Assembly (NCBI GenBank): GCA_913056185.1
Contig: CAJXLV010000010.1
Span: forward strand, 1 to 64,000
DNA length: 64,000 bases
From: an uncultured Bacteroidota bacterium
GTDB lineage: Bacteria; Bacteroidota; Rhodothermia; Rhodothermales; Salinibacteraceae
Direction of reading: 5' to 3'
Below are positions 1 through 30,335 of the stretch, in pieces (position 1 is the stretch's first letter; each line of letters opens with the position of its first letter). The notes below the pieces were generated by a model. It made no database searches and was not told the origin of the DNA. It saw only the letters and a program-made list of their open reading frames with translations. Both the position numbers and the translations under genes were made by a program.

Positions 1-471
1 TTCATCACCCTGTCGGCACAGGTCAACGAGCAGATGCCGTTTTACGTGACCACCGCGGTGGTGGAGGCCATTGCAAAACGGCCCGTGCGGCTGCAAGACG
101 CCTCCGTACTGGTGCTGGGAGCGGCGTTCAAGAAGAACGTCGACGATACGCGACACGCCCCCGCCCGGAGCATAGTGCGCCTGCTTCGCGAAAAAGGCAT
201 TGAGCATCTTCAGTACGCCGACCCGCACGTTGACTGCCTGTGCGTAGAGACCGAGCACGGACCTTTTGAGGTGCCCCGCGTAGAGGTAACGCCGCAGACG
301 CTTGCCGAGCAGGACGTGGCGGTCCTTGTGACGGACCACGAGGCGTTTCCTTACGCCACCATCCGCGAGCACGCGCCGATGGTGGTGGATGCGCGCAACG
401 GATTTGAGGACGGCGCGAGGGCCGAGAATGTGTGGCTGCTGGGGGACGGGGCTCCCGAGCCCGACGCCTGA
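1..471 (+). CDS. Nucleotide-sugar (UDP-GlcNAc/ManNAc type) 6-dehydrogenase, C-terminal part; 5' end outside window
   Basis: Frame is open from base 1; NEQMPFYV and VLVLGAAFKKNVDDTRHAPARSIVRLLREKG resemble the WecC/WbpA family C-terminal domain. Confidence 0.85.
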   Translation, partial: FITLSAQVNEQMPFYVTTAVVEAIAKRPVRLQDASVLVLGAAFKKNVDDTRHAPARSIVRLLREKGIEHLQYADPHVDCLCVETEHGPFEVPRVEVTPQTLAEQDVAVLVTDHEAFPYATIREHAPMVVDARNGFEDGARAENVWLLGDGAPEPDA

Positions 472-12698: not shown

Positions 12699-13898
12699 GT
12701 GACCATGAGCAGGCTCGATCGATTCAAGAAGGCGGTCCTGGACGCGTGCTTTCGGCCCGTGGAGCTGGAGGCGCCCGCCTTGTCCCCGACGACTGTCCTC
12801 TCGCTGGGCGACGTCCCCGCGCTGTTTGACCCGACCCGCAACGGCCCGCCGCAACAGGGCGTGCCCCGCATTCGCCTGTACGACGACGTGACGGTTTGGC
12901 CCGCACAGAGCGTGGCCCACTGCGGGCCGGCTCTCGCGTTCGATACGTTCATGGATGCGGGGCACACTGCCCATCTGGGCGCCCTAAATGCGCTGCGTCA
13001 CTACCCCATTCGGCGCCGGCGCGGATGGGCGACGGCAATCGAGAGCGTCTACCCGACGGCGAACTACTACCACTTTTTTGTGGACACGCTTCCGCGCGCA
13101 TGGGCACTGCACCACCCGGCCCTGCGCGGCATCCCCATCACGCTCTACCTCACGCGTCCGCTCGCGGGGCCGAAAAAGGCGGTGCTGCGCAGCGTGCTGC
13201 CGCCCAACGTCACCATCTGCACCACGCACCGCTTCACGCGGCTCGCGACGGACCGGTACGTGCACCTTCCATACCTGAGCACTGACCGTGCCGGGCACGT
13301 GCCGGAGCGGGGGGAGACCAGCGGGGGCTTTCTGCCACAAGAGTACCTCGAATTTTTCCGGCGGCATATGCTGGCCCGTGCCGACGCGGCCGCGGTGCCT
13401 TCGCCCGAACGCATTTTTGTGTCGAGAAAGGGAGCGTCGATGCGCCGCCTGACCAATGAGCGCGCGGTGGCTGCGTTCTTAGAGGCGCGGGGGTTCGTGA
13501 CGGTGCGGCCGGAGACGTACTCGCTCGCGGAGCAGGCGCATCTGTTCAGCACGGCCGAGACGGTGGTGGCCCAGCACGGGGCCGCCCTCACAAATCTCCT
13601 GTATATGCGACAGGGGGCGGTCGTAGAGGTCTTTTCCTCGCACCACACCCCACAGTACTACACGCAGTGCGCACGTACGCTGGGCCTGCAGTACGAGGCC
13701 ATCACACTGGACCGCGGGTGGAAGAATGCCGATGCGCACCTGCCGCTGGACGCGTTGGCTCGTGCGCTGTCTGCCTTGGAGGGGAGCGCCTCCCAGGAGC
13801 GGGGCGGCAGTGAAGGCGGCAGTGAAGGCGGCAGTGAAGGCGGCAGTGAAGACAGTGCCCCCCCACGCTTCCTGGAGTCGCAGTCGGCCCGTCCCTGA
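12699..13898 (+). CDS. Glycosyltransferase family 61
   Basis: FVSRKGASMRRLTNE...AETVVAQHGAALTNLLYMRQGAVVEVF is characteristic of GT61. Confidence 0.88.
   Translation: MTMSRLDRFKKAVLDACFRPVELEAPALSPTTVLSLGDVPALFDPTRNGPPQQGVPRIRLYDDVTVWPAQSVAHCGPALAFDTFMDAGHTAHLGALNALRHYPIRRRRGWATAIESVYPTANYYHFFVDTLPRAWALHHPALRGIPITLYLTRPLAGPKKAVLRSVLPPNVTICTTHRFTRLATDRYVHLPYLSTDRAGHVPERGETSGGFLPQEYLEFFRRHMLARADAAAVPSPERIFVSRKGASMRRLTNERAVAAFLEARGFVTVRPETYSLAEQAHLFSTAETVVAQHGAALTNLLYMRQGAVVEVFSSHHTPQYYTQCARTLGLQYEAITLDRGWKNADAHLPLDALARALSALEGSASQERGGSEGGSEGGSEGGSEDSAPPRFLESQSARP
13803..13850 (+). repeat. Four tandem copies of 12-bp GGCGGCAGTGAA, coding GGSE x4
   Basis: Direct reading; in frame near the 3' end of the GT61 gene. 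Confidence 0.95.
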
Positions 13899-13964
13899 TT
13901 CCCGGTCCCCTCCAGTCCGCCTGCTGTTTTCGGATCGCACCTTCTCGTCTGGCCCCTCCGCGGC

Positions 13965-14876
13965 ATGCACCTGCTCACGGTCGTGATCACCTGCTACAAC
14001 CACGGCGCTTACCTCCACACGTCCATCCGAAGCGTGCTGGGCCAAGGATTCAACGACGTGGAGCTGATCGTGGTGGACGACGGCTCCACGGACCACACGC
14101 CTGCTGTTGCGGGGCAGTGGGCGGAGGCCACCTACATCCGGCAGGAAAACCAGGGCCTTAGTGCGGCCCGCAACACCGGCCTGGAGGCCGCTACGGGAAC
14201 GCACATTTGCTTTCTGGACGCCGACGATTGGTTCCTGCCTGGGGCCCTGCACGCCATTGCTCGTCGGGTGCAGGCGCATCCCACCGCCGCCCTGTTGGTT
14301 GGCGGCCACATCAAGGCCTACGACACGCCCACGGGCGTGCGCTACGGCGAGACGTCGATTCCCGCGCTCCAGCCCGATCCATACGCCGCTCTCCTCCGGT
14401 GCAACGTGATCGAGATGCACGCCGCGGTTGCGTACCGGCGAGACGTACTGCGGACGATGGGCGGATTTGACGAAGCCCTCCCGGCGGCGGAGGACTACGA
14501 GATGCTCCTGCGTGTCGCGCGCGACCACCCCACGCGGCGCCTGGAGGGCTACTCCAAGCCTGTTGCCGCCTATCGCCGCCACGCCTCCAACATGAGCGAC
14601 AATCCTGGCCTCATGCTCAAAAGCACGCTCGACGTGCTGCATCGCCACCGCAGCGCGGCCTCTGGCTGCCCGGCGCACCGTCACGCCCTGGAGGAGGGAC
14701 TTCGCTTCCACAAGGACCTGTACGGTGCACGGGTGCTGCGGCGCGTAAAGCGTACGCTCCGCAGTGCGGCTGCCCGGTCCTGCCTGCGGGACGATCTCAC
14801 TCTGCTCGGGCGCTACGCCCCTGTGTGGACCGTTCGCCGACTGGGCCGACATCTTGCCGAATACATTCGACGGTAG
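13965..14876 (+). CDS. Glycosyltransferase family 2
   Basis: LLTVVITCYNHGAYLHTSIRSVL...LIVVDDGSTDHT...CFLDADDWFLPG. Confidence 0.92.
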   Translation: MHLLTVVITCYNHGAYLHTSIRSVLGQGFNDVELIVVDDGSTDHTPAVAGQWAEATYIRQENQGLSAARNTGLEAATGTHICFLDADDWFLPGALHAIARRVQAHPTAALLVGGHIKAYDTPTGVRYGETSIPALQPDPYAALLRCNVIEMHAAVAYRRDVLRTMGGFDEALPAAEDYEMLLRVARDHPTRRLEGYSKPVAAYRRHASNMSDNPGLMLKSTLDVLHRHRSAASGCPAHRHALEEGLRFHKDLYGARVLRRVKRTLRSAAARSCLRDDLTLLGRYAPVWTVRRLGRHLAEYIRR

Positions 14877-16937: not shown

Positions 16938-17003
16938 CGGGTTGGCACGGAGTTTGGGACGGAACGCGCTGTCGTCTTGTCTTGCATCCATCCGGGGTTC
17001 TCA

Positions 17004-20000
17004 ATGCGTCGTCCGTTGTGTCAGTTGGTTCTTTGTGTTCTTCTGTTCGTTGGGGCCCGGCAGGCCGGGAGCACGCCCGTCGGCCCTGGGGCGTTGGCAG
17101 AGCAGTCGGTCCGCGCCTCCACCCCCGCCGCGGATACGCTCCTGCTGGACCAGTATCCCGACGCGCAGGCCGCCTACAGCGTGCGGCGACTGCGCGCAAG
17201 CTATGAGGGCCCCGCCCTGCGCGTCCGACGCACCAGTGACAATGCCGAGCAAGATTTCGGATTTACCCAGGCCGGTACGCTCAACCAGGCCGCCATCGAA
17301 AATTGGCTGGCGGGGGCGGACGGGACGGTGGTGCGGTGGTACGCACAGGTAGACGGCATGACCGACCTTGTGGGAAGCCCCGGTCCTGAGATCGCCCGCA
17401 ACGGCACTGTCCACACCGATCCCGATGGCCGCCCCCACCTCTACCTTGGCACCGGGGGGCTGTCCGCCGACAGGTGGTTCCTCCCCCAGAACATTACAGC
17501 CTCCCTGGTGGTCGAGATTGAGTCGACCACCAACCCCTGGGACATGCTCCTGGAGATGCGAAGCTCGTCGGACCTGCGTGTGTACCGGACCAGCGACGGG
17601 CGCTATTGGACAACGCCCGGCGAGAACAAGATAATTACGCCCAACGAAAAGCTCATTCTCACCGTTGCGGGGTCGGCGCAGGGCCTGCAAATGTATCAGA
17701 ACGACGCCCAAAAGCTGAACACCGAAACCCCCCTGGGCGAAAATTGGGCGGGTCCGTTGCGGGTGGGGGCATTGGACGGCTTTCTCGGCGAACTGGTGCT
17801 GTACCCACACCTGGACCAGCAGGACGTGTGGGCGCGGTACGACAACATGAATGACTACTGGCAGGTGGGTCCGTCTGGCACCAATCGGGGGGCTCTCCTG
17901 CCGCAGACCTCGCAGTATCAGGTCACGCTCTACGACTGGCTGGAAACCATCTCGACCGACGATGTCGCCCTGCCGGACGGGACGCTCTCGTTCGATCGCT
18001 CCGTCCTCAGTACGGACGAGCTGGCAGACCTCTGGCTTCAAGTAAAGGGGCTCACGGCCTCCAGCGTCACGCGCCGAGAGCCGGCCTGGTACACACTGGA
18101 CAACGGGGACGGGAGGGGCATTGAGGCAACGGGCGTTGTGCGGGCCAACCATGACCCCCAGGGCGGCGATTACGGCGGAAATCCTCCCCGGTCGTGGCAA
18201 AACGAGCCTGCTTACTGGTATCAGCTTGACATTCCTCTTTCGGGGGGAGGCCAGGGAAATCCGTGGTACAAGGACCCCGCAATGGGACGGCGGGCGATGG
18301 TGGTGGCCATTGTAGACCTCATGATGCACGAAGGGCTCGACGATGTAGACTCGTTCAACTGGTTCGATATGAAGGGGAAGGCCTTCCTCGGCATGGCAGA
18401 GGCGTACCGCTGGGCAGGCGAAGTGATGCCCTCTGATGTGCAGGCAGCGTTCGAAACGGGCATGGAAAAGCTCATCGATGACCTGACGGCGCGCGGGCCG
18501 CGGGCGGTAAATACCAACATGGACATGTTTGCCCTACACGGCGCCGCAGATTTCTACAAGGCCACCGACGACCCCGCCTTGAAAGCAAAGTCCATCGGCC
18601 TCGTCAAGCGGGCGTTGCTGGGCTTCCCCGACGGGGAGCTCGGGACAAAGCACAAGGTGTTTGCCGCGGGCGGGCGGGACGGCGGCGTCTACGACCCCTC
18701 CGGATTCATCATGGAAGGGGGGCAGCCGGACCATTTTTACGGCGGGGAGTCGCTCTATCACCTCATGGGCGCGCTGGCGGCCGTTACGGATCGCGAGACG
18801 GCGACGGTGCCGCCCGACTGGGCCTTCCTGCGCACCGTTGTGGAGCAGCTCCAGATATGGCGAAGCTATCAGGTCTTCCACGACCCGGCCAACGATAGCC
18901 CATACCGCGATCAAAATACGCCTCTGTTCTCAGGGGCCGGCTTTTCGGGCCGCACTTCTGCGGGGGCGCCAGCGGGGCAAAACGACAAGCCCTGGAAAAA
19001 ACTCGGTGTGGCCGCCACCTTCGCTCCGGCGCTTGCCCACAAGAGCGAATACGTGACTACCCAGCTGCCCACCGTCCCGGAGATGGAAAGCGACATTTCC
19101 GGGCTCCTGTCGGGCATGACAAGCAAAATGGCCTCCCCCTACACCGGCGCCCCCCCCAGTGAGTGGAGCGGGTGGAGCCCCTGGACAAAGTCGACCCCCT
19201 ACCTCCCACCGGCGGGCTGGTACAGCACCCTCACGGCCCTCCTCACCGCCGATGATCCGCAACTCCGCTACCCCTCGCAGCAGCCCGGCGCGTCCTGGAA
19301 CAAATCCTTCGGCGGCCCTCCCGTCGGGCCGCAGTACTGGTCGTACAAAGACACCGCCCCCGATGGGCGCGCGTTCGGGTTCTTTGTGGAGGCACAGTCT
19401 CGGCAGGGCACGTACGGGGGGTGGTACGGCGGCAAAATCGAAACCTTCTGGATGGAAGAGGTAGGCGTGGTGCTCCTCAACCGCCACGGCAAGACCGGAT
19501 GCGACCGCACCAGCCGCACGGACGACAACTTCGAGGACTCCGTCTGTTGGTTCAACCTCGACTGGAAGGCGGGGCACCACGTATGGGGGCGCGACGAAGG
19601 AGGCACTGGGTTCACCACCCTTCTACTCCGAGGGCGCACCCTGGAGCGCACAGCCCGCTTCCGCACTGAGCAGCCGGTCCCTTCGGTCACGGTGCGCAAC
19701 CAGTTCAACGACCCGAGCCAGCCGACAGGCACGGCCGGCCTCTCCGGCGAACAGACAGGTACGGAAATCCAGGGCAGTTTTGTGGTCGAGAACGAGTTCA
19801 CGGCACAGCCCCGCGGCCTTCGGGTGACACACCGACTCGCCTCCGACCAAACCGATGAGGTGACGGAGCTCTGGGCTACGCTCCCGGTCCACTTGCGACA
19901 GTACAGCGAGTTTGCGGGGCCGGACCCCCAGATTAGCATGGCGCCCACCTCTATCGAATACTGGACCGGAACGGCGTGGGCCGCGTTGCCCGAGGACCAA

Positions 20001-20768
20001 GACGGAAATGGCGTGCCCGAGCGGGTCACAACTACGGCCCTGCGGCTTGGACGGGCGTACCCCATTTTCAATGCGCCCCGGTACGCCTACCTGTCGCTGG
20101 AGGCCCCGCAGACGGTGCGCCTGGCCAGGCGCGCGTACCACGACCCTTACCAGACGCCGACCAGCGTGCGGGCGGTCCACATTGATCTCCACGGCGATCC
20201 CGGGACGGTGAAGCCGCTGCCGGCCGAACAGCAGGTGTCGTATGTACTGCAGACGACCGATCCGACCCAGGAAAGCGGGACGGTGAACCAGTCCATCACG
20301 CTGCAAAAGGGCAGCAACCTCGTGGCCACGGCCCTTGCGCCCACCCCTGCCTCCATGGATTCTGTCTTTGCAGACGTTGCGTCGGCGGTGGTGGCCGTGC
20401 AAAACGAGGAGGGCGAGCGCTACCGCCCCAGCAACGGAGTCAATGAGATCGGTGCCTGGACCGCAACAGACGCATACGTGGTGTACGCCGACCCCGAAAC
20501 GACGCTGGCTGTGCAAGGGGATGCGCTCGATGCCCCTACTCTCAGCCTGGAAGCAGGCTGGAATTGGGTGCCGTACCTCCGCGACACGGGGCGCCCTGTG
20601 GCGGAGGCCTTTGCCTCCATTGCCGACGTACTGGTTCTGGTGAAGGGCGAGGACGGACGCGTCTACGTCCCCAGCAAAAACGTGAACACGCTTGGGGACG
20701 TGGCTCCGGGCGAAGCGTACAAGGTGTACGTGCGAGAGGCCACAACCGTATCCTACGACTTCGAGTGA
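17004..20768 (+). CDS. Large secreted protein: N-terminal arabinofuranosidase-B-like/ConA-like region, central polysaccharide-lyase-like region, two C-terminal GWN-type modules
   Basis: Signal peptide MRRPLCQLVLCVLLFVGARQAGS; LLLDQYPDAQAAYSVRRLR...ALRVRRTSDNAEQDFGF is AbfB-like; central Trp/Tyr/His-rich region; annotation is by motif memory. Confidence 0.6.
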   Translation: MRRPLCQLVLCVLLFVGARQAGSTPVGPGALAEQSVRASTPAADTLLLDQYPDAQAAYSVRRLRASYEGPALRVRRTSDNAEQDFGFTQAGTLNQAAIENWLAGADGTVVRWYAQVDGMTDLVGSPGPEIARNGTVHTDPDGRPHLYLGTGGLSADRWFLPQNITASLVVEIESTTNPWDMLLEMRSSSDLRVYRTSDGRYWTTPGENKIITPNEKLILTVAGSAQGLQMYQNDAQKLNTETPLGENWAGPLRVGALDGFLGELVLYPHLDQQDVWARYDNMNDYWQVGPSGTNRGALLPQTSQYQVTLYDWLETISTDDVALPDGTLSFDRSVLSTDELADLWLQVKGLTASSVTRREPAWYTLDNGDGRGIEATGVVRANHDPQGGDYGGNPPRSWQNEPAYWYQLDIPLSGGGQGNPWYKDPAMGRRAMVVAIVDLMMHEGLDDVDSFNWFDMKGKAFLGMAEAYRWAGEVMPSDVQAAFETGMEKLIDDLTARGPRAVNTNMDMFALHGAADFYKATDDPALKAKSIGLVKRALLGFPDGELGTKHKVFAAGGRDGGVYDPSGFIMEGGQPDHFYGGESLYHLMGALAAVTDRETATVPPDWAFLRTVVEQLQIWRSYQVFHDPANDSPYRDQNTPLFSGAGFSGRTSAGAPAGQNDKPWKKLGVAATFAPALAHKSEYVTTQLPTVPEMESDISGLLSGMTSKMASPYTGAPPSEWSGWSPWTKSTPYLPPAGWYSTLTALLTADDPQLRYPSQQPGASWNKSFGGPPVGPQYWSYKDTAPDGRAFGFFVEAQSRQGTYGGWYGGKIETFWMEEVGVVLLNRHGKTGCDRTSRTDDNFEDSVCWFNLDWKAGHHVWGRDEGGTGFTTLLLRGRTLERTARFRTEQPVPSVTVRNQFNDPSQPTGTAGLSGEQTGTEIQGSFVVENEFTAQPRGLRVTHRLASDQTDEVTELWATLPVHLRQYSEFAGPDPQISMAPTSIEYWTGTAWAALPEDQDGNGVPERVTTTALRLGRAYPIFNAPRYAYLSLEAPQTVRLARRAYHDPYQTPTSVRAVHIDLHGDPGTVKPLPAEQQVSYVLQTTDPTQESGTVNQSITLQKGSNLVATALAPTPASMDSVFADVASAVVAVQNEEGERYRPSNGVNEIGAWTATDAYVVYADPETTLAVQGDALDAPTLSLEAGWNWVPYLRDTGRPVAEAFASIADVLVLVKGEDGRVYVPSKNVNTLGDVAPGEAYKVYVREATTVSYDFE

Positions 20769-21193
20769 CACCTCTCCTGTGACGGACCTCTCCCCCGGGT
20801 GCTAAAAGCCTGATCCGACGACTGTCGGCACGCGGTGTCGCCTCCATTCCCGCCCGCCACAGCATCAGGGCGGAGGGCTGCGTCGCCGCAACGAACACCG
20901 CACGTCTGCAGCCCCCCCGGCGCTCCCTGCCCCCGGCAACGGGGCCGCCCCTGTGTCGTCGCTCGTCGCGACCGATGCGCCGCGCGCAGGACCGCCCGTA
21001 CTTGTCCGGCTGCAGTCGGGACGCGGGCCGCTCCGTAGGCCCCCTGTCCAAAACCGGTCCGTGCGCCCACCGCTTCTGTCTCTCTGCGTGTTTCAGGGCC
21101 TCGTTCCGACGACGATCAGCCCCAACGGCGCCTGCGCGCGCTCCGGCGGTGAACATGCGATTGCCATCCCCTCTTTCCCACCCCCCTTTCCCA

Positions 21194-22036
21194 ATGGTGG
21201 AAGTTGTATACGTCTGCAGCCCCGAATATTGGCGGCATCTATTTCTGTCCCTGAGAACCCTGTACGCCTCCGGCACCCACTTCGATCGGGTCCGGGTGCT
21301 GGTTACGGCCCCCACTCCGCCCCACTGGGACATCCGCTCCGACAAGGTCGTGGTCGAGCCCGTGCCGGACCTGGGGCACCACGGCTTCTGGATGATGAAC
21401 AAGGCCCACCTGTGTCGTTCGGAGGCAGATGTGGTCATCTTTCTGGATACCGACACCGTCGTCCTCCGCCCGATCGACGCCGTGTATGCAGGGTCCGGGG
21501 CGGACCTCCACGCCCGAGCAGCCCCGGTCGTGCAGACCTCGTATTTTCGGCCGGCCCAGTGGGAGGCCACCCTGCGGCACTTTGGCTGCGCCCCAGGTCC
21601 CTACGTAAGTACCGGCTTCCTCGTCCTCAAAAACGGGGCCCAGAAGGCACTGCGGGCTGCCTGGGTCGACCTCATGGAGCGCATCCGCCGTGGGGAAGGC
21701 GTCGAGCAAGTAACGCGGCACGCAGATCAGTACGCCTTCTCTATCGCGGCGTATCGGCAGGGGCTGTCGTTGCAGCTCATGAACGACGCGCACCACGCGT
21801 ACGCCATGCTCGGCGAAGGACACGAGGGGGCGACGGTTTATCACCTCGGCACGCCGAACTTCTATTACTACTACTTGCAGGTCGAACGAGACCTGGACCT
21901 GACGCCGGACGATGCGCCGGTGAAGCGGCCGTCGTTCTTACGGCTCCATCGGCTCAAAAACCGACTCGCACGGAAGGTGAGAATGAAAATGGGCATAGAC
22001 CGAAAGTCGAGGGGGCTGCAGCGGACCACTTCGTGA
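21194..22036 (+). CDS. GT8-like glycosyltransferase
   Basis: MVEVVYVCSPEYWRHLFLSLRTL...VVIFLDTDTVVLRPIDAV; ORF extends upstream but coding character starts near here. Confidence 0.75.
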   Translation: MVEVVYVCSPEYWRHLFLSLRTLYASGTHFDRVRVLVTAPTPPHWDIRSDKVVVEPVPDLGHHGFWMMNKAHLCRSEADVVIFLDTDTVVLRPIDAVYAGSGADLHARAAPVVQTSYFRPAQWEATLRHFGCAPGPYVSTGFLVLKNGAQKALRAAWVDLMERIRRGEGVEQVTRHADQYAFSIAAYRQGLSLQLMNDAHHAYAMLGEGHEGATVYHLGTPNFYYYYLQVERDLDLTPDDAPVKRPSFLRLHRLKNRLARKVRMKMGIDRKSRGLQRTTS

Positions 22037-22062
22037 TCTGTGAATCCAATCGCGCACGCTTT

Positions 22063-24243
22063 ATGAAGCAAGTTATACAGGACGTAAAAACCGGTGAGAC
22101 ATCCCTGGAGACCGTCCCGCCTCCAGCCCTTTCTCCCACGACCGTCCGCGTACGGACGGCCGCCTCTCTAATCAGCGCGGGCACAGAAAAAATGATCATT
22201 GACCTGGCAGAGAAGAGCTACCTGGGAAAGGCCCAGGCGCGACCGGATTTGGCCAAGAAGGTGCTGCGAAAGGTTCGCACGGAGGGCGTATGGACGACGA
22301 TTCGGAAGGTGGTTGCCAGGCTGGAGCGACCGATGCCGCTGGGGTACAGCGCCGCCGGCATCGTGGAGGAGGTGGGGGCGGAGGTCGCAGGCGTCCAGGT
22401 GGGCGATCGGGTCGCGATGGCAGGAGCGGGCTACGCCAACCACGCGGAGGTGAACGTCGTGCCCAAGAATCTCCTCGCGCCTCTTCCGGATGGGGTGTCG
22501 TTTGGAGAGGCAGCGTACGCTACGGTGGGAAGCATTGCGCTGCAGGGTGTACGCCTGGCGGCCCCCCGCCTTGGGGAAACGGCAGTGGTGATTGGGCTTG
22601 GCCTCATCGGTCTTCTTACTGTTCAGCTCCTGAAGGCGAACGGGTGTCGGGTGGTGGGGGTCGATGTAAATGCCGCGGCGGTGGAGCGGGCAAAGGCCAT
22701 GGGGCTCGTTGCCGGTGTGGTGTCGACGAACGAAGACGTGGCGGCCGTGGTGAACCGACATACCCGCGGGCACGGGGTGGACCACACCCTCATCACGGCG
22801 GCGACAGACAGCAATGCGCCCATTGAGCAGGCGGGGCGCCTCACACGCCGCAAGGGAGACGTGGTGATTGTAGGCGAGGTGGGCATGAAGATCCCCCGAG
22901 ACACCTACTACCACAAAGAGCTTGAGGTGAAGGTCTCCATGTCGTACGGCCCGGGGCGCTACGACCCCACCTACGAGGAGGGCGGCATCGATTACCCCTA
23001 CGACTACGTGCGGTGGACGGAGCAGCGCAACATGGAGGCGGTGCTCAGGCTTATGGCCGAGGGCGCGCTGGACGTGGACACACTCACTACGCACCGGTAC
23101 TCCTTTGCGAAGGCGCTCGACGCGTACAGTGTGATTCGAGACGAGACAGAACCGTACGTCGGCATCGTACTGGACTACGATTTGGAGGCCTCCAAGTGCA
23201 TTCAGGAGCGCGTGCCGGTGCATCCGTCGGGCACGCACCGCACGCCCGACTGCCTCGGCATTGGGGTGGTGGGGGCGGGCAACTACGCCTCGGTCCACCT
23301 CCTTCCGCACCTCCGCGACCACGCGCGAACCACGCTCCGGGGCCTGGCTACGGCTACGGGCAGCAACGCACAGCGACAGGCCGATGCGTTCGGCTTTGCC
23401 TACTGTACCACGGCCCTCCAGCCCCTGTTGGAGGACGAGACCATCGACGCACTCTTCATCGCCACGCGCCACAGCACGCACGCCGAATTTGCAAGGCGTG
23501 CCCTGCAGGCGGGAAAGCATGTGTTTGTGGAAAAGCCGATGGTGGTGACTCCGGCTCAGCTCCAGGCGGTACAGGAGGCGTACACGGCGGCCCAGGCGGA
23601 GGGGACAGGTCCCACGGGCCTGATGGTGGGGCTCAACCGCCGCTTTGCCCCCATGGCACAAACGCTCCGCGATGCGTTCCCCGCGGCGGCCCCGCTGCAG
23701 ATGATCTACCGTGTAAACAGCGGCGCTGTCGATACGGACGCGTGGCTGCACCGGCCAGAGGAGGGGGGAGGCATGCTGGTGGGAGAGATGGTGCATTTTA
23801 TTGACCTTATGCAGTGGGTCTGCGGCGCTGTGCCCACGAACGTGTGCGCCCGCGCCCTGCGCCTGGACCGCGCCGATCGCGTGGAAACGGACAATGTGGC
23901 GCTCACCCTTTCGTTTGCGGACGGGTCGACGGGCACGCTTTGCTACAATACGGTGGGCGACGAGGCGGCTCCCAAGGAGCGGTTGGAGGTGTACGGGGGC
24001 GGTGCGGGGGCGGTGCTGGATGACTTCCGGCGGCTGGAGGTGACGCAGGAGGGGGCGACCTCCACCACGCGCGCATGGAGCCAGGACAAGGGACAGGCGA
24101 GCCAGGTGGAGGCCACGGTGCAGGGCTTCCGGGAGCGGGGCCGTGCGCCGATTGCGTTTGAAGAGTTGGCGGTGGGCATGCAGGCTGTGTTCGCGACGCG
24201 CGACGCGCTCACGTCCATGGCCCCGGCGGCTGTACATGGGTAG
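22063..24243 (+). CDS. Bi-domain oxidoreductase: zinc-type alcohol dehydrogenase plus GFO/IDH/MocA domain
   Basis: N-half PLGYSAAGIVEEVGAEVAGVQVGDRVAMAGAGYANHAE, VIGLGLIGLLTVQLL; C-half GIGVVGAGNYASVHLLPHL, KHVFVEKPMVV. Confidence 0.92.
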   Translation: MKQVIQDVKTGETSLETVPPPALSPTTVRVRTAASLISAGTEKMIIDLAEKSYLGKAQARPDLAKKVLRKVRTEGVWTTIRKVVARLERPMPLGYSAAGIVEEVGAEVAGVQVGDRVAMAGAGYANHAEVNVVPKNLLAPLPDGVSFGEAAYATVGSIALQGVRLAAPRLGETAVVIGLGLIGLLTVQLLKANGCRVVGVDVNAAAVERAKAMGLVAGVVSTNEDVAAVVNRHTRGHGVDHTLITAATDSNAPIEQAGRLTRRKGDVVIVGEVGMKIPRDTYYHKELEVKVSMSYGPGRYDPTYEEGGIDYPYDYVRWTEQRNMEAVLRLMAEGALDVDTLTTHRYSFAKALDAYSVIRDETEPYVGIVLDYDLEASKCIQERVPVHPSGTHRTPDCLGIGVVGAGNYASVHLLPHLRDHARTTLRGLATATGSNAQRQADAFGFAYCTTALQPLLEDETIDALFIATRHSTHAEFARRALQAGKHVFVEKPMVVTPAQLQAVQEAYTAAQAEGTGPTGLMVGLNRRFAPMAQTLRDAFPAAAPLQMIYRVNSGAVDTDAWLHRPEEGGGMLVGEMVHFIDLMQWVCGAVPTNVCARALRLDRADRVETDNVALTLSFADGSTGTLCYNTVGDEAAPKERLEVYGGGAGAVLDDFRRLEVTQEGATSTTRAWSQDKGQASQVEATVQGFRERGRAPIAFEELAVGMQAVFATRDALTSMAPAAVHG

Positions 24244-24680
24244 GGGCCTTGCTGGACGAGAAAGGGGCGAGGAGGGGCGCGCTGGGCCCCGGATGGAACG
24301 GAGCGGCCGTCGAGTGGGGCTGCGCCCGGCACTCGCACGTCCCGGTACGAGTGCGTCTTGGCGCCTGTGAGGCATCTCTCGGAGATAAACTGAGCCGCCC
24401 ACGAGAGGTGCTGTGGAGGCGGGGAGGCACGGGCCGTGATGCACGTGGAAACGGCGGGCCCGACGGAGCCAAAAGCACACAATGGAGGGGCCAATTCTCC
24501 TGGGCGAGGGAGAAGCCGGGGCGCTACACTCGGAACGCAATGCCCTCTCCAAAAAAGAGGGGCGGCCGCCAGCCAGGCGGGGAGCATTGTGGGAGGACGA
24601 GGGACGTGCGATACGAACAGACAACACTGCCCGTGTGGAGCCTTTTGTCAGGCGAGAGTGGGGAGACACTCCGACACTAT

Positions 24681-26267
24681 ATGCACACAGTGCCTCACCT
24701 GAAGCCGTGGCAGGTAGTGGGGCGTCTGGTGGCGCCCGTGCAGCGCTGGGTGGGTCGGCACACCCTTCCGGCCCCCCCGTCGGCCCTCTCTGATCGCTTG
24801 CAGCCGTCCGTTTCCATGCTCCGTCACCATCCCTGGAATGCGCGCAGGCGGGTACTGGCGGGGCGGTTTCGGTTTTTGGGAAAAGAGGCCGCGTTGGGTC
24901 GCCCCGTCGACTGGGCGGCGCCCCAGCGCTCACTGCTCTGGCGGTTCTTCCTGCACTACTTCCACTATCTCCACGCCCTTGCCCCGCAGGAGCAGGTCGC
25001 CCTCTGCCGCGACTGGATGGCCGCAAATCCGGTGGGTAGCGACGTGGGCTGGCACCCGTACCCTACCTCGCTCCGCCTGGTGAACTGGTGCACGGCGCAG
25101 CTCCCGGCCCCGGACGTGCGGGCAAGCCTGTACCGTCAGGCGGCGTACCTGTCGCGCACGGTGGAGACACACGTCTACGGCAATCACCTGCTCGAAAATG
25201 CGCGGGCCCTGCTCGTGGCCGGGTGTGCCCTGCGCGGACAGGGCGAAGCGCCCCGGTGGGCGGCGCAGGGGCGGGCTCTCTACCGCGCCGAGGTGGAAAA
25301 GCAGATTCTCGCGGACGGATTCCACTACGAGCGCAGCCCGATGTACCACGCGCTCATGCTGCACGGGGTGCTCGATGTGTTGAACGTATGGCCGGGCGGA
25401 GCGGACGCGTGGCCCGAACTGCAGCAGCGGGCGCGTGCCATGACAGCAGCGCTGGCGACTGTCACACATCCCGATGGCCGCCTCGCACTTTTTAATGATG
25501 CCGTGCACGAGGTCGCCCCGCCTCCCGCCCGCCTGCATCGGTACGCCCAGTCTGTCGTGGGCGAGTGCCCCCCCGCCCGGAGCACACTGCCCTCGGCGGG
25601 CTACTACGTGGTCGATGCGGATGACGTGTGGCTCATGATTGACGGGGGCGCGGCGGGCCCGGAGCACTTGATGGCTCACGCCCACGCCGATGCCTTCAGC
25701 TACGAGTTGTCGCTCTTTGGGGACCGGTTTGTGGTAGACAGTGGCGTCTACGAGTACGCGGCCGGGCCGATGCGGGACTACGTGCGCTCCACTGCTGCCC
25801 ACAATACGGTGCAGGTGGATGGCCACGATCAGATGGAATGCTGGGACTCGTTTCGGGTGGCGCGGCGGACAGCGCCGCGGGGTGTGGTGTGGCGACGCAC
25901 CCCGACGGGGGCGTTCTTTAAGGGGGAATTGAGGCTTCTGGAGGGAGGGGGGGTGCACCGGCGACGGATCCGGGTCGAGATGGAGGCACGGCGCCTGTCC
26001 GTGCACGACATGCTCGCTGGCACCGGGACGCACCGTGCCGAAAGTCGCATCCATCTCCACCCGCAGGTGCGGGTGCAGTGTGATGGGGAGGGGGCGCTCC
26101 TGCAGCGGGGGGCGCACCGGTGCCGCCTGGTGCCAACGGCGGGCCACCTGCGACGCGAGGAGGGGTGGTACTGCCCACGCTTCGGAGAGCGCCTCCGTCG
26201 GCCTGTGCTCGTCGTGGCGGCGGCGGGGGCACTGCCGCTGCGGTGCGGGTACGAGGTGCGATACTGA
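24681..26267 (+). CDS. Heparinase II/III family protein (alginate-lyase-like)
   Basis: MHTVPHLKPWQVVGRL; YGNHLLENARALLVAGCAL; HAHADAFSYELSLFGDRFVVDSGVYEY; start codon uncertain (GTG at 24606 possible). Confidence 0.88.
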   Translation: MHTVPHLKPWQVVGRLVAPVQRWVGRHTLPAPPSALSDRLQPSVSMLRHHPWNARRRVLAGRFRFLGKEAALGRPVDWAAPQRSLLWRFFLHYFHYLHALAPQEQVALCRDWMAANPVGSDVGWHPYPTSLRLVNWCTAQLPAPDVRASLYRQAAYLSRTVETHVYGNHLLENARALLVAGCALRGQGEAPRWAAQGRALYRAEVEKQILADGFHYERSPMYHALMLHGVLDVLNVWPGGADAWPELQQRARAMTAALATVTHPDGRLALFNDAVHEVAPPPARLHRYAQSVVGECPPARSTLPSAGYYVVDADDVWLMIDGGAAGPEHLMAHAHADAFSYELSLFGDRFVVDSGVYEYAAGPMRDYVRSTAAHNTVQVDGHDQMECWDSFRVARRTAPRGVVWRRTPTGAFFKGELRLLEGGGVHRRRIRVEMEARRLSVHDMLAGTGTHRAESRIHLHPQVRVQCDGEGALLQRGAHRCRLVPTAGHLRREEGWYCPRFGERLRRPVLVVAAAGALPLRCGYEVRY

Positions 26268-26473
26268 GAAGGGGTGGGAAAGACCGACGTGGGAACGACC
26301 GACGTGGGGAGACCGATCGGAGGGGAATGGGGAGGGACGTATGAGGGGGGGCATCCCGGCCGCCGTCGGAACCGTCGGCTCCCCCCTCTGCTGCACAAGG
26401 GCAATGAGGTCCAAATCAAAACAGACATTTGCGCGGGCCTGCGCCGTTCTCCCGTCATTCTCTGCCGTCGTGT

Positions 26474-27712
26474 ATGCACATCTTGTTCTTGGGCAATTAC
26501 TTTCCGCCGGAGGTGAATGCGCCCGCCACCCGCACCGCCGAGCATGCACGCCAGTGGGTGGACGACGGGCACACAGTCGACGTGCTCACGAGTGTGCCCA
26601 ATTTTCCCGAAGGAGAGGTGTACGCAGGATACGAGAACCGACTCACTCTCGAGGAGCACGACGGGGTGCGGGCCGTGCGCGTCCCCATGTATGTATCGGC
26701 GAATGAAGGGATCTTTCGCCGCACGCTCAGCTACCTGTCGTTCATGGTCGCGGCGTGCTGGTACGCCCGGTACCTGGACCCGCCGGATGTAGTTGTGGCC
26801 ACATCGCCACAGTTTTTTGCGGGCCTGGCAGGGTGGTGGGTGGCGTGGAGGAAGCAGGCGCCGTTCGTGCTGGAGATCCGGGACCTATGGCCCGAATCAG
26901 TAGTGGCTGTGGGGGCGATGGGGCGCAATCCGATCATCCGCTTTTTCGAATGGGTGGAGGCCCGTCTGTATACGGCCGCCGACTGCATTGTCGCCGTCAC
27001 GGATGCGTTCAAAGAGGCCATTGCGGAGAAGGGCATTGCGCCGGACAAAATCGCGGTCGTGAAAAATGGGATCGACCCGCGCCGGTGGGACGGCCCCCTG
27101 GACGAGCAGCGCCTGGAAGCGCTCCGTCGGACGCATGCCCTGGAGGGCAGATTTGTGGCCAGCTACATCGGCACGGTGGGGCTGGCGCACCGCGCGGATG
27201 TGATGCTGGAGGCGGCGGCGCGGTGTGAGGACCCCGACATCGTATTTATGGTGGTGGGCACGGGCGCGGCGTGGGACACCCTGAAGGCACAGCAAGAAGC
27301 CTTGCAGCTGGATAATGTTCGACTCGTAGAAAAGGTGCCGAAGGAAACGGTGCCCTATCTGTTGGACCTGAGCGATGCAAGTGTGGTGCACCTGCGCGAT
27401 ACGCCTCTCTTTGAGACCGTCATTCCGTCGAAAATGTTTGAGGCGATGGCGACGGGGACCCCGGTGGTGCTGGGGGTGCGGGGGGAAGCGCGAGACATTA
27501 TGGAAACGGCGGGCGCGGGGCTATCCGTTCCGCCGGAGGCCCCGGAGGCGCTTGTGGAAGCGGTGCAGCGCCTGAAAGCGTCGCCGTCTCTCCAGGAGGA
27601 CCTGGCGGCCAACGGACAGCGGCATGTGCGAGCGCACTACGATCGGCAGGCCCTGGCGCGCCGGTATGCATCGCTGTTGGGCCGCGTGGCATCGTCCCCC
27701 ACCCTCGCCTGA
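26474..27712 (+). CDS. Glycosyltransferase family 4, WbuB/WcaI-like
   Basis: MHILFLGNYFPPEVNAPATRTAEHARQWVDDGHTVDVLTSVPNFPEGEVY. Confidence 0.92.
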   Translation: MHILFLGNYFPPEVNAPATRTAEHARQWVDDGHTVDVLTSVPNFPEGEVYAGYENRLTLEEHDGVRAVRVPMYVSANEGIFRRTLSYLSFMVAACWYARYLDPPDVVVATSPQFFAGLAGWWVAWRKQAPFVLEIRDLWPESVVAVGAMGRNPIIRFFEWVEARLYTAADCIVAVTDAFKEAIAEKGIAPDKIAVVKNGIDPRRWDGPLDEQRLEALRRTHALEGRFVASYIGTVGLAHRADVMLEAAARCEDPDIVFMVVGTGAAWDTLKAQQEALQLDNVRLVEKVPKETVPYLLDLSDASVVHLRDTPLFETVIPSKMFEAMATGTPVVLGVRGEARDIMETAGAGLSVPPEAPEALVEAVQRLKASPSLQEDLAANGQRHVRAHYDRQALARRYASLLGRVASSPTLA

Positions 27713-27989: not shown

Positions 27990-30335
27990 ATGGCTATCTC
28001 TTGGCTTTTGAGTGTGGGGGGGAGTGCCGCCGCAGGGGCAGCAACGACGGCACTGCTCACGTGGGGACTCCGACGCGTAGCGCCACGGGTCGGGTTGGTC
28101 GACCGTCCCACACAGACCCGAAGCATGCACTGCCAGGCGGTTCCCACCGGCGGTGGGCTTGCGATAGCCGGGGGCATAGGCATGGCGTTCGCCGGGTTGT
28201 TTGTGCTGGAAGGCTTGCCGGCCCCCCTGCAAACCGTCGCCTTCTGGCTCGGGGGGGGCGTGGTGATGGGGGTGGGCTTGTGGGACGATGCGTATGACCT
28301 TGATCCGAAAACAAAGGTTGGGGCCCAACTCGTGGCGGCGTATCTGTTGCTGCATGCGGGGACGTCGCTTTCACTTCCTGGCCTGGAGGTGGGGGGAGGG
28401 CTGGAACGCCCCCTGTACGTGGTGCCGCTGTCGCTGCTCTGGGTGGTTGGGGTCACCAATGCGGTCAATCTCATTGATGGGCTCGACGGACTGGCGGCGG
28501 GCGTTGCGGGCATTGCAGCACTGTCGTGTGCGGCTCTGTTCGGCCTTCGCGGCGATGTGGTGCTGATGGGCGTGGGGCTGGCGCTGGTGGGGGCCATTGC
28601 GGGCTTCTTGCCGTTCAACGCGCGGCCGGCGTCCATCTTTATGGGGGATGCAGGAAGCCTTCTCCTGGGCTACGTCCTCGCGGCCTACACCCTTCAGGCG
28701 CCTCTGCACGCCGACCTGGGCCTGGCGCTCCTGCTGCCGCCGCTCCTGCTTGGGGTGCCCGTCCTGGATGCGCTTGTCGCCATTGTGCGACGGGGGCGGG
28801 CCGGGCGCTCCTTATTCGCGCCGGACCGGAGCCACATTCACCACCGACTTGTAGAGCGGGGCTCCGCCCGGCAGGCGGTCTGGGTCCTGTACGGGGTGGC
28901 GGGCGCGTTTGGGGGGGCGGCGGGGCTGGTGGGCCTGCTGCCGACGGCGGGGGGCTACGTGCTGCTTCTGCTTGTGGCCGGGGCGGCGCTTGGGTGGGTG
29001 GGGCGCCTCGGGGCGTTTGCGGCAGGGACGCCTTCGCACGCGGCTACAGCCTCGGGGACGGATACAGCCCTGGGGCGTGCGGCGGCGCCCGAAGAGCCTA
29101 CGGAGACGGCCTCAGAAGCAGGCGCGCCCCTCGCCTCCAGCGGGGACGGCCACGAGGCCTCGCTCACGGCCTCGCCCGTGCCGCATGGACGGAGCGATTC
29201 TTCCCTGCACTGCCTCAGTGTCGTGGGCGCCCGCCCAAACTTTATGAAAGTCGCCCCCCTGCACCGCGCGCTTCAACAGCACGGCGGGTTCCGCTCCACC
29301 ATCGTCCATACGGGGCAGCACTACGATGACCAAATGAGCGACGTCTTCTTCCGGCAACTGGGACTGCCTGCGCCGGATTTGCATCTGGGGGTGGGCAGCG
29401 GCAGCCACGCTGCCCAGACGGCGCGCGTGATGGAGGCCTTTGAGCAGGTGGTGCAGGCTGAGGCCCCGGACCTGGTCGTGGTCGTGGGCGATGTGAACTC
29501 GACGCTCGCCGGGGCGCTGGTGGCGGCCAAGCTGCAGGTCGAAGTGGCGCACGTGGAGGCGGGTCTGCGCAGTGGAGACCGGCGCATGCCGGAGGAGGTC
29601 AACCGGCTACTAACGGATCGCCTCGCAGACTATCTGTTTGTGACGGAGCAAAGTGGCGTTGCGCACCTCCAGGCAGAAGGGGTGCCGGAGGAGAAAGTGT
29701 TTCTGGTGGGCAATCTGATGATTGATGCTCTCGTTCAGTGTCGAGAGGCGGCGGCCCGCCGTACGCCCGCGGAGGATCTTGGGGTGGTGGGGCACCCCTA
29801 CGTGCTCATGACAATGCACCGGCCGGGCAATGTGGACCATGAGCGCGGCGCCCGGCGTCTCCTGGAGACAATTGAGGGCATCGCGGCGGAGCGACCGGTG
29901 GTTTTTCCAATGCATCCGCGCACCCGGGCGCGCTTCGAAGCGTTCGGCCTGATGAAGACGCTCACGTCTCTCCGCGCGGTGTATGTGCTGGAGCCACAGG
30001 GGTACCTGGAGTTTCTGCGGCTGATGGAGGAGGCCCGCGTCGTGGTGACGGACTCGGGCGGCATCCAGGAGGAAACGACGTTTCTGGGCGTGCCCTGTCT
30101 CACGCTGCGGGAGAATACGGAGCGTCCGGTGACCATTGAGCAGGGGACCAACGAGCTGGTGCCGCTTGTGCCGTCGCGCGTGGTAGAGCGAGTGCGGGAC
30201 GTGGCGGAGGCGCCCCCTGAAGGTCCTGGGAACTGCCCCCCGCTCTGGGATGGGCAGGCGGCAGGGCGCATCGTGCAGGTGCTCGAGGCGCAGCTCATGC
30301 CGCGCGGAGCTCCGGCCGGTTCGGGTCTCGGCTGA
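27990..30335 (+). CDS. Fusion of WecA/MraY-like undecaprenyl-phosphate sugar-1-P transferase and UDP-GlcNAc 2-epimerase (WecB-like)
   Basis: N: GVGLWDDAYDLDPKTKVGAQL, NLIDGLDGLAAG, NARPASIFMGDAGSLLLGY, HIHHRL; C: VVGARPNFMKVAPL, HTGQHYDDQMSD, HVEAGLRSGD, PEEVNRLLTD, TDSGGIQEE. Confidence 0.92.
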   Translation: MAISWLLSVGGSAAAGAATTALLTWGLRRVAPRVGLVDRPTQTRSMHCQAVPTGGGLAIAGGIGMAFAGLFVLEGLPAPLQTVAFWLGGGVVMGVGLWDDAYDLDPKTKVGAQLVAAYLLLHAGTSLSLPGLEVGGGLERPLYVVPLSLLWVVGVTNAVNLIDGLDGLAAGVAGIAALSCAALFGLRGDVVLMGVGLALVGAIAGFLPFNARPASIFMGDAGSLLLGYVLAAYTLQAPLHADLGLALLLPPLLLGVPVLDALVAIVRRGRAGRSLFAPDRSHIHHRLVERGSARQAVWVLYGVAGAFGGAAGLVGLLPTAGGYVLLLLVAGAALGWVGRLGAFAAGTPSHAATASGTDTALGRAAAPEEPTETASEAGAPLASSGDGHEASLTASPVPHGRSDSSLHCLSVVGARPNFMKVAPLHRALQQHGGFRSTIVHTGQHYDDQMSDVFFRQLGLPAPDLHLGVGSGSHAAQTARVMEAFEQVVQAEAPDLVVVVGDVNSTLAGALVAAKLQVEVAHVEAGLRSGDRRMPEEVNRLLTDRLADYLFVTEQSGVAHLQAEGVPEEKVFLVGNLMIDALVQCREAAARRTPAEDLGVVGHPYVLMTMHRPGNVDHERGARRLLETIEGIAAERPVVFPMHPRTRARFEAFGLMKTLTSLRAVYVLEPQGYLEFLRLMEEARVVVTDSGGIQEETTFLGVPCLTLRENTERPVTIEQGTNELVPLVPSRVVERVRDVAEAPPEGPGNCPPLWDGQAAGRIVQVLEAQLMPRGAPAGSGLG

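Follow-up and report, generated by a model that had tools for sequence, protein, structure and literature searches.

The window (the whole stretch of 64,000 nucleotides analysed) carries a polysaccharide cluster in which a WecA-type transferase and a 2-epimerase are encoded by one gene (Table 1). The frame is uninterrupted over 781 codons, from an ATG at 27990 to a stop at 30333-30335. This start is supported by a second genome, G073, whose corresponding frame opens directly at the aligned methionine. No obvious ribosome-binding motif is found upstream of the start, and no promoter or terminator scored above chance in a scan.

Table 1. The fused gene, its parts and its neighbours (positions in the window)
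Feature	Position	Strand	Support or remark
Nucleotide-sugar 6-dehydrogenase, C-terminal end	34..471	+	Cut by the contig end
Bi-domain oxidoreductase: zinc dehydrogenase and Gfo/Idh/MocA	20953..24243	+	
Heparinase II/III-family protein, same cassette	24249..26267	+	60% identical neighbour in G073
GT4 glycosyltransferase (WcaI/WbuB-like), directly upstream of the fused gene; candidate second-sugar transferase	26429..27712	+	Pfam, NCBIfam; 75% identical neighbour in G073
Fused gene, 781 aa: WecA-type polyprenyl-phosphate HexNAc-1-P transferase, linker, non-hydrolysing UDP-GlcNAc 2-epimerase	27990..30335	+	Pfam, NCBIfam; fusion conserved in G073
WecA/MraY-type membrane domain, residues 1-345	27990..29024	+	11 predicted helices; WDDAYDLD, NLIDGLDGLA, FMGDAGS, DRSHIHHRL
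Linker, residues 346-404	29025..29201	+	Predicted disordered; 27% identical to the G073 linker
Epimerase_2 domain, residues 405-781	29202..30332	+	Catalytic and allosteric motifs all present; Arg712 aligned with Thermus Trp307

Within the cluster, the true start of the oxidoreductase probably lies near 22.3 kb, the N-terminal part of its frame being without family. A 1263-aa protein encoded at 16977-20768 (+) has no confident family; a full-length homologue (46% identical) is present in genome G019 (L039:4597-8499), where it adjoins a stand-alone epimerase. A 457-aa frame (13479-14852, minus strand) within the glycosyltransferase cluster shows no Pfam or NCBIfam match. Once the general family is set aside, the dehydrogenase end at the window start best matches PRK11064 (UDP-ManNAc dehydrogenase) among the specific families, with a score below cut-off. 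Positions 1-471 of the window and contigs C45, C26 and C51 of the same genome (G000) carry two near-identical nucleotide-sugar dehydrogenase genes, apparently split at contig ends. Since the split genes share their first bases, the upstream portion of the cluster probably lies on C26, which carries a Wzc-like gene, or on C51. The cassette adjoins a Por_Secre_tail gene and recG in G000, while recG of G073 is on a different contig, without the fusion.

WecA transfers GlcNAc-1-P from UDP-GlcNAc onto undecaprenyl phosphate, giving Und-PP-GlcNAc, and WecB converts UDP-GlcNAc to UDP-ManNAc; they are normally separate proteins. The initial annotation had placed both in one open frame with their full motif sets, and this is confirmed. 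The two Pfam domains, Glycos_transf_4 (PF00953, residues 84-235, 129 bits against a gathering score of 27) and Epimerase_2 (PF02350, residues 426-766, 359 bits), are far over their cut-offs. The transferase motifs are WDDAYDLD (98-105), NAVNLIDGLDGLA (157-169), FMGDAGS (217-223) and DRSHIHHRL (279-287). They include the Asp-Asp, NxxNxxDGxDGL, FMGD and HxHH motifs of polytopic phosphoglycosyl transferases (PGTs), and the helix number (about 10-11) is also that of this class. The epimerase half carries GARPNFMK (413-420), GQHYDD (442-447), GDVNST (500-505), HVEAGLRSGDRRMPEE (521-536), MHRP (609-612), HPRTR (642-646), TDSGGIQEE (687-695) and LRENTERP (706-713). Aligned via the Thermus enzyme, K420, D501, E523, E535 and H610 are the equivalents of E. 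coli K15, D95, E117, E131 and H213.

The naming of the two halves as WecA and WecB holds at the level of enzyme type, a WecA-type transferase and a non-hydrolysing 2-epimerase. The transferase half scores 121 bits with ECA_wecA (TIGR02380), against a curated cut-off of 326; judged by its profile scores it is WecA-like and is excluded as an ECA WecA orthologue. The epimerase half exceeds the curated cut-off of wecB (TIGR00236; 323 bits against 210). However, it lies outside the E. coli WecB branch: it scores 325 bits with the Thermus UDP-GlcNAc3NAcA 2-epimerase (45-46% identity) and 302 with the M. jannaschii UDP-GlcNAc 2-epimerase but only 168 with E. coli WecB, so that orthology with the E. 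coli type is ruled out.

The linker, which the initial annotation had correctly located at about 29020-29205, comprises 57-59 residues and is rich in Ala, Ser and Glu (13 Ala, 9 Ser, 7 Gly, 7 Thr, 6 Pro, 5 Glu). An AlphaFold model of the fused protein (17-row alignment, mean pLDDT 81, pTM 0.51) exhibits 11 membrane helices, an unstructured segment at 346-402 (pLDDT < 50) and a complete two-domain epimerase; at this low pTM the model does not fix how the domains sit relative to each other. The top Foldseek matches are the Thermus and Methanocaldococcus 2-epimerases. The C-terminus of the membrane domain would lie on the cytoplasmic, catalytic side, because two helices separate it from the HIHH loop, whose side is given by the known WecA topology. 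Stand-alone WecAs of the genus carry a hydrophilic C-terminal tail in the same place; it resembles the linker in length and make-up and might be its source, but alignment scores between them are no better than those of shuffles.

Searching the order (114 genomes) identified a second full-length fusion (G073:C45:3661-5964; 65% identity overall). The two proteins are 61% identical in the transferase, 27% in the linker, where in-frame indels occur, and 72% in the epimerase, an unequal divergence that would be expected of two domains under selection joined by a loose tether. The fusion is thus found in 2 of the 13 genomes of the genus and 2 of the 114 of the order. In a sample of 396 genomes of the phylum, no other protein spans both domains among the matches listed (to about E = 4e-91), and none of the best 80 of 586 confirmed loci in the genome collection is fused. 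Among 72,556 plasmid records a single one exceeds 80% query cover, an Acetoanaerobium plasmid (81%), in which the two enzymes are separate frames. Two other long frames were also discarded: that of G019 (813 aa) holds the epimerase only, and that of G062 (868 aa), re-read as 462 aa, the transferase only. The open-access literature searched (subscription papers lay outside its scope) yielded no report of a WecA/epimerase fusion. The proposal of a lineage-specific fusion inside a polysaccharide cluster is therefore borne out, with two sister species as its known range. The fusion is rarer than might be expected, and further examples may exist.

A RecG tree makes G000 and G073 sister species (99/98). 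Their epimerase domains also pair with each other (100/99), beside the stand-alone epimerases of that family. In the transferase trees the fused domains share a clade with stand-alone WecAs from four congeners but do not pair firmly within it: G073 groups with stand-alones in the large set (99/89), and the small set gives no resolved order. As the two species are sisters, a single origin is the simplest account; the fusion most likely arose once, in their common ancestor. In G064 and G019 the gene immediately after heparinase and GT4 is the stand-alone epimerase; in G000 and G073 the fused gene stands after the same two genes. The simplest view is that a wecA gene landed between the GT4 and epimerase genes of an older heparinase-GT4-epimerase cassette and became fused to the latter.

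The fused gene is the sole Epimerase_2 gene in G000 and in G073 and must therefore supply any UDP-ManNAc made there by this route. Its product line can be approached through its neighbours. In G064 a UDP-HexNAc-type 6-dehydrogenase gene comes next after the stand-alone epimerase; it scores 250-255 bits with UDP-ManNAc dehydrogenases against 131-173 with UDP-glucose dehydrogenases, all below equivalog cut-offs. The same dehydrogenase class is present in G073 and, in pieces at contig ends (one of them at the window start), in G000. UDP-ManNAc and then UDP-ManNAcA would therefore be the likeliest product line.

The initial annotation also suggested that tethering channels the UDP-GlcNAc pool between chain initiation and ManNAc supply. 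Strict channelling is a misfit, because neither enzyme's product is the substrate of the other and UDP-GlcNAc is used in parallel; the tether could only co-locate or balance these two uses. We consider it likely that the protein is a bifunctional surface-polysaccharide enzyme that ties UDP-ManNAc production to the site of chain initiation. In this scheme, in which we infer both activities, the identity of the substrates, the ManNAcA step and the advantage of the fusion, the N-terminal membrane domain would load undecaprenyl phosphate with a HexNAc-1-phosphate, most likely GlcNAc-1-P, taken from UDP-HexNAc. After its last helix the chain would be back in the cytoplasm, and there a flexible tether of about 57 residues would carry the soluble epimerase that converts UDP-GlcNAc to UDP-ManNAc. 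The latter would probably be oxidised to UDP-ManNAcA by a UDP-HexNAc 6-dehydrogenase, and UDP-ManNAc(A) would donate an early sugar, the neighbouring GT4 protein being the candidate transferase. The gain would be co-localisation and a 1:1 stoichiometry of chain start and donor supply, with no intermediate handed over. The tether might act by fixing stoichiometry, by having the ManNAc donor made at the membrane near the next transferase, or by coupling through the shared UDP-GlcNAc pool. UDP-GlcNAc also activates such epimerases allosterically (PMC10622841). A closer coupling in cis, in which one molecule comprising a polytopic PGT and a UDP-GlcNAc-activated epimerase sets both initiation and ManNAc supply, appears rather doubtful; it might take the form of a shared local pool, matched stoichiometry and possibly a dimer of dimers.

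Several other explanations bear on this reading. That an assembly or sequencing error joined two genes might be feared of a 79-contig draft such as G000, but G073, assembled independently, has the same fusion with a matching in-frame linker, which rules such an error out for practical purposes. The frame might instead yield two proteins, by internal initiation or proteolysis of the linker, the fusion then existing at the DNA level alone. A disordered linker would indeed be protease-sensitive, and each linker contains an in-frame candidate start (GTG at residue 397 in G000, ATG at residue 389 in G073). However, these lie at non-matching places, both lack a ribosome-binding motif (although the gene's own start also lacks an obvious one), and no conserved internal start is seen in the two linkers; the clostridial wecA-epimerase pairs, by contrast, have a stop and then an ATG, preceded in L056 and L059 by a GGAGG-type motif. 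We regard two separate products as improbable. Less easily set aside is the idea that the epimerase acts on another UDP-sugar, be it UDP-GlcNAc3NAcA (the WbpI case) or a 6-deoxy-HexNAc (the L-FucNAc pathway), and that no ManNAc pathway operates. Its nearest solved relative is the Thermus UDP-GlcNAc3NAcA enzyme, although the UDP-GlcNAc 2-epimerase of M. jannaschii is only slightly more distant. The Thermus enzyme differs from UDP-GlcNAc users by Trp307 for Arg, Ala18 for Leu/Met and Tyr96 for His/Gln; the Arg, which binds the C3 hydroxyl, is found in all UDP-GlcNAc users (PMC10622841). The fused epimerase has Arg712, Val421 and Val499 at these positions and thus none of the three WbpI-type residues. 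Arg712 disfavours a UDP-GlcNAc3NAcA substrate, and no PF08485 protein (CapE/WbjB type), as expected for the L-FucNAc pathway, occurs in any of the 13 genomes of the genus. From these residues the C3 side would fit UDP-GlcNAc and the C6 side neither substrate class; the sugar at C6 is uncertain because the two valines replace the Leu/Met and His/Gln of UDP-GlcNAc users. On balance a different sugar seems unlikely.

The serious rival is a neutral accident: wecA would have landed in frame before the epimerase gene and the read-through been tolerated, the domains remaining independent and the tether without effect. The fusion is limited to one sister pair, its linker is unconserved, and the stand-alone WecAs of the genus already bear a hydrophilic tail of similar length in that place, such that the membrane domain would stay undisturbed. 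Against this, the frame has been kept through about 35% protein divergence with neither a stop nor a conserved internal start, and it contains the only epimerase of both genomes. Neutrality is accordingly a possibility to be taken seriously, but not the one we favour.

As a tethered bifunctional enzyme, the protein would be a rare new arrangement of familiar parts and no new system, both parts being textbook families. It shares with the WecA/TagO/MraY family (PF00953) all motifs, the 11 helices and the WecA-type DRxHIHHR loop but differs by its C-terminal enzymatic domain. Compared with WecB/MnaA epimerases (TIGR00236, PF02350), it retains the full fold and the catalytic and most allosteric residues but is tethered to a membrane transferase and has Val at two C6-side positions; the nearest solved structures are those of T. 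thermophilus (8SXV) and M. jannaschii (4NEQ). Polytopic PGTs are tabulated as 'PGT only' and bifunctional fusions are described among monotopic PGTs (PMC10942596); a polytopic transferase with an enzymatic partner would therefore be new by that account. The Bi-PGTs mentioned there (citing O'Toole et al. 2021), in which a monotopic PGT is fused to another functional domain, also join an initiating transferase to a second function. The likeness is architectural only, since the monotopic fold is unrelated to the polytopic one, and the fused protein gives no Pfam match to the monotopic domain (PF02397, Bac_transf).

Gene fusion is strong evidence that two steps belong together. Here it would link the supply of UDP-ManNAc to the start of lipid-linked chains in a little-studied lineage, make an exception to the view of polytopic PGTs as stand-alone enzymes and predict that one polymer has both GlcNAc and ManNAc(A) among its early sugars. 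It also offers a natural construct for asking whether donor supply tethered to a membrane transferase alters flux.

Related arrangements are found elsewhere. Clostridial tagO/wecA-mnaA pairs (L056, L057, L059) contain the same two enzymes, adjacent and in the same order, but as two genes with a stop and an own start codon, and their epimerase is of the MnaA/WecB branch. In L056:5977-8193, L057:5941-8115 and L059:5923-8130 the genes share one reading frame with a single stop between them, one mutation away from fusion. A second WecA-type transferase of the genus is fused to CoA_binding_3 (PF13727), which in large monotopic PGTs is an accessory domain and reportedly binds UDP-sugars (L003:376-2337 on G000:C74, L133:313-2313, L135:1168-3123); most genomes of the genus have long frames of this kind, of about 620-720 aa. 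Finally, an 840-aa frame of the Calditrichaeota genome CLD3 (L104:5917-8436, +) combines a polytopic PGT (PF00953), CoA_binding_3 and a monotopic PGT (PF02397), and thus two unrelated kinds of initiating transferase in one chain.
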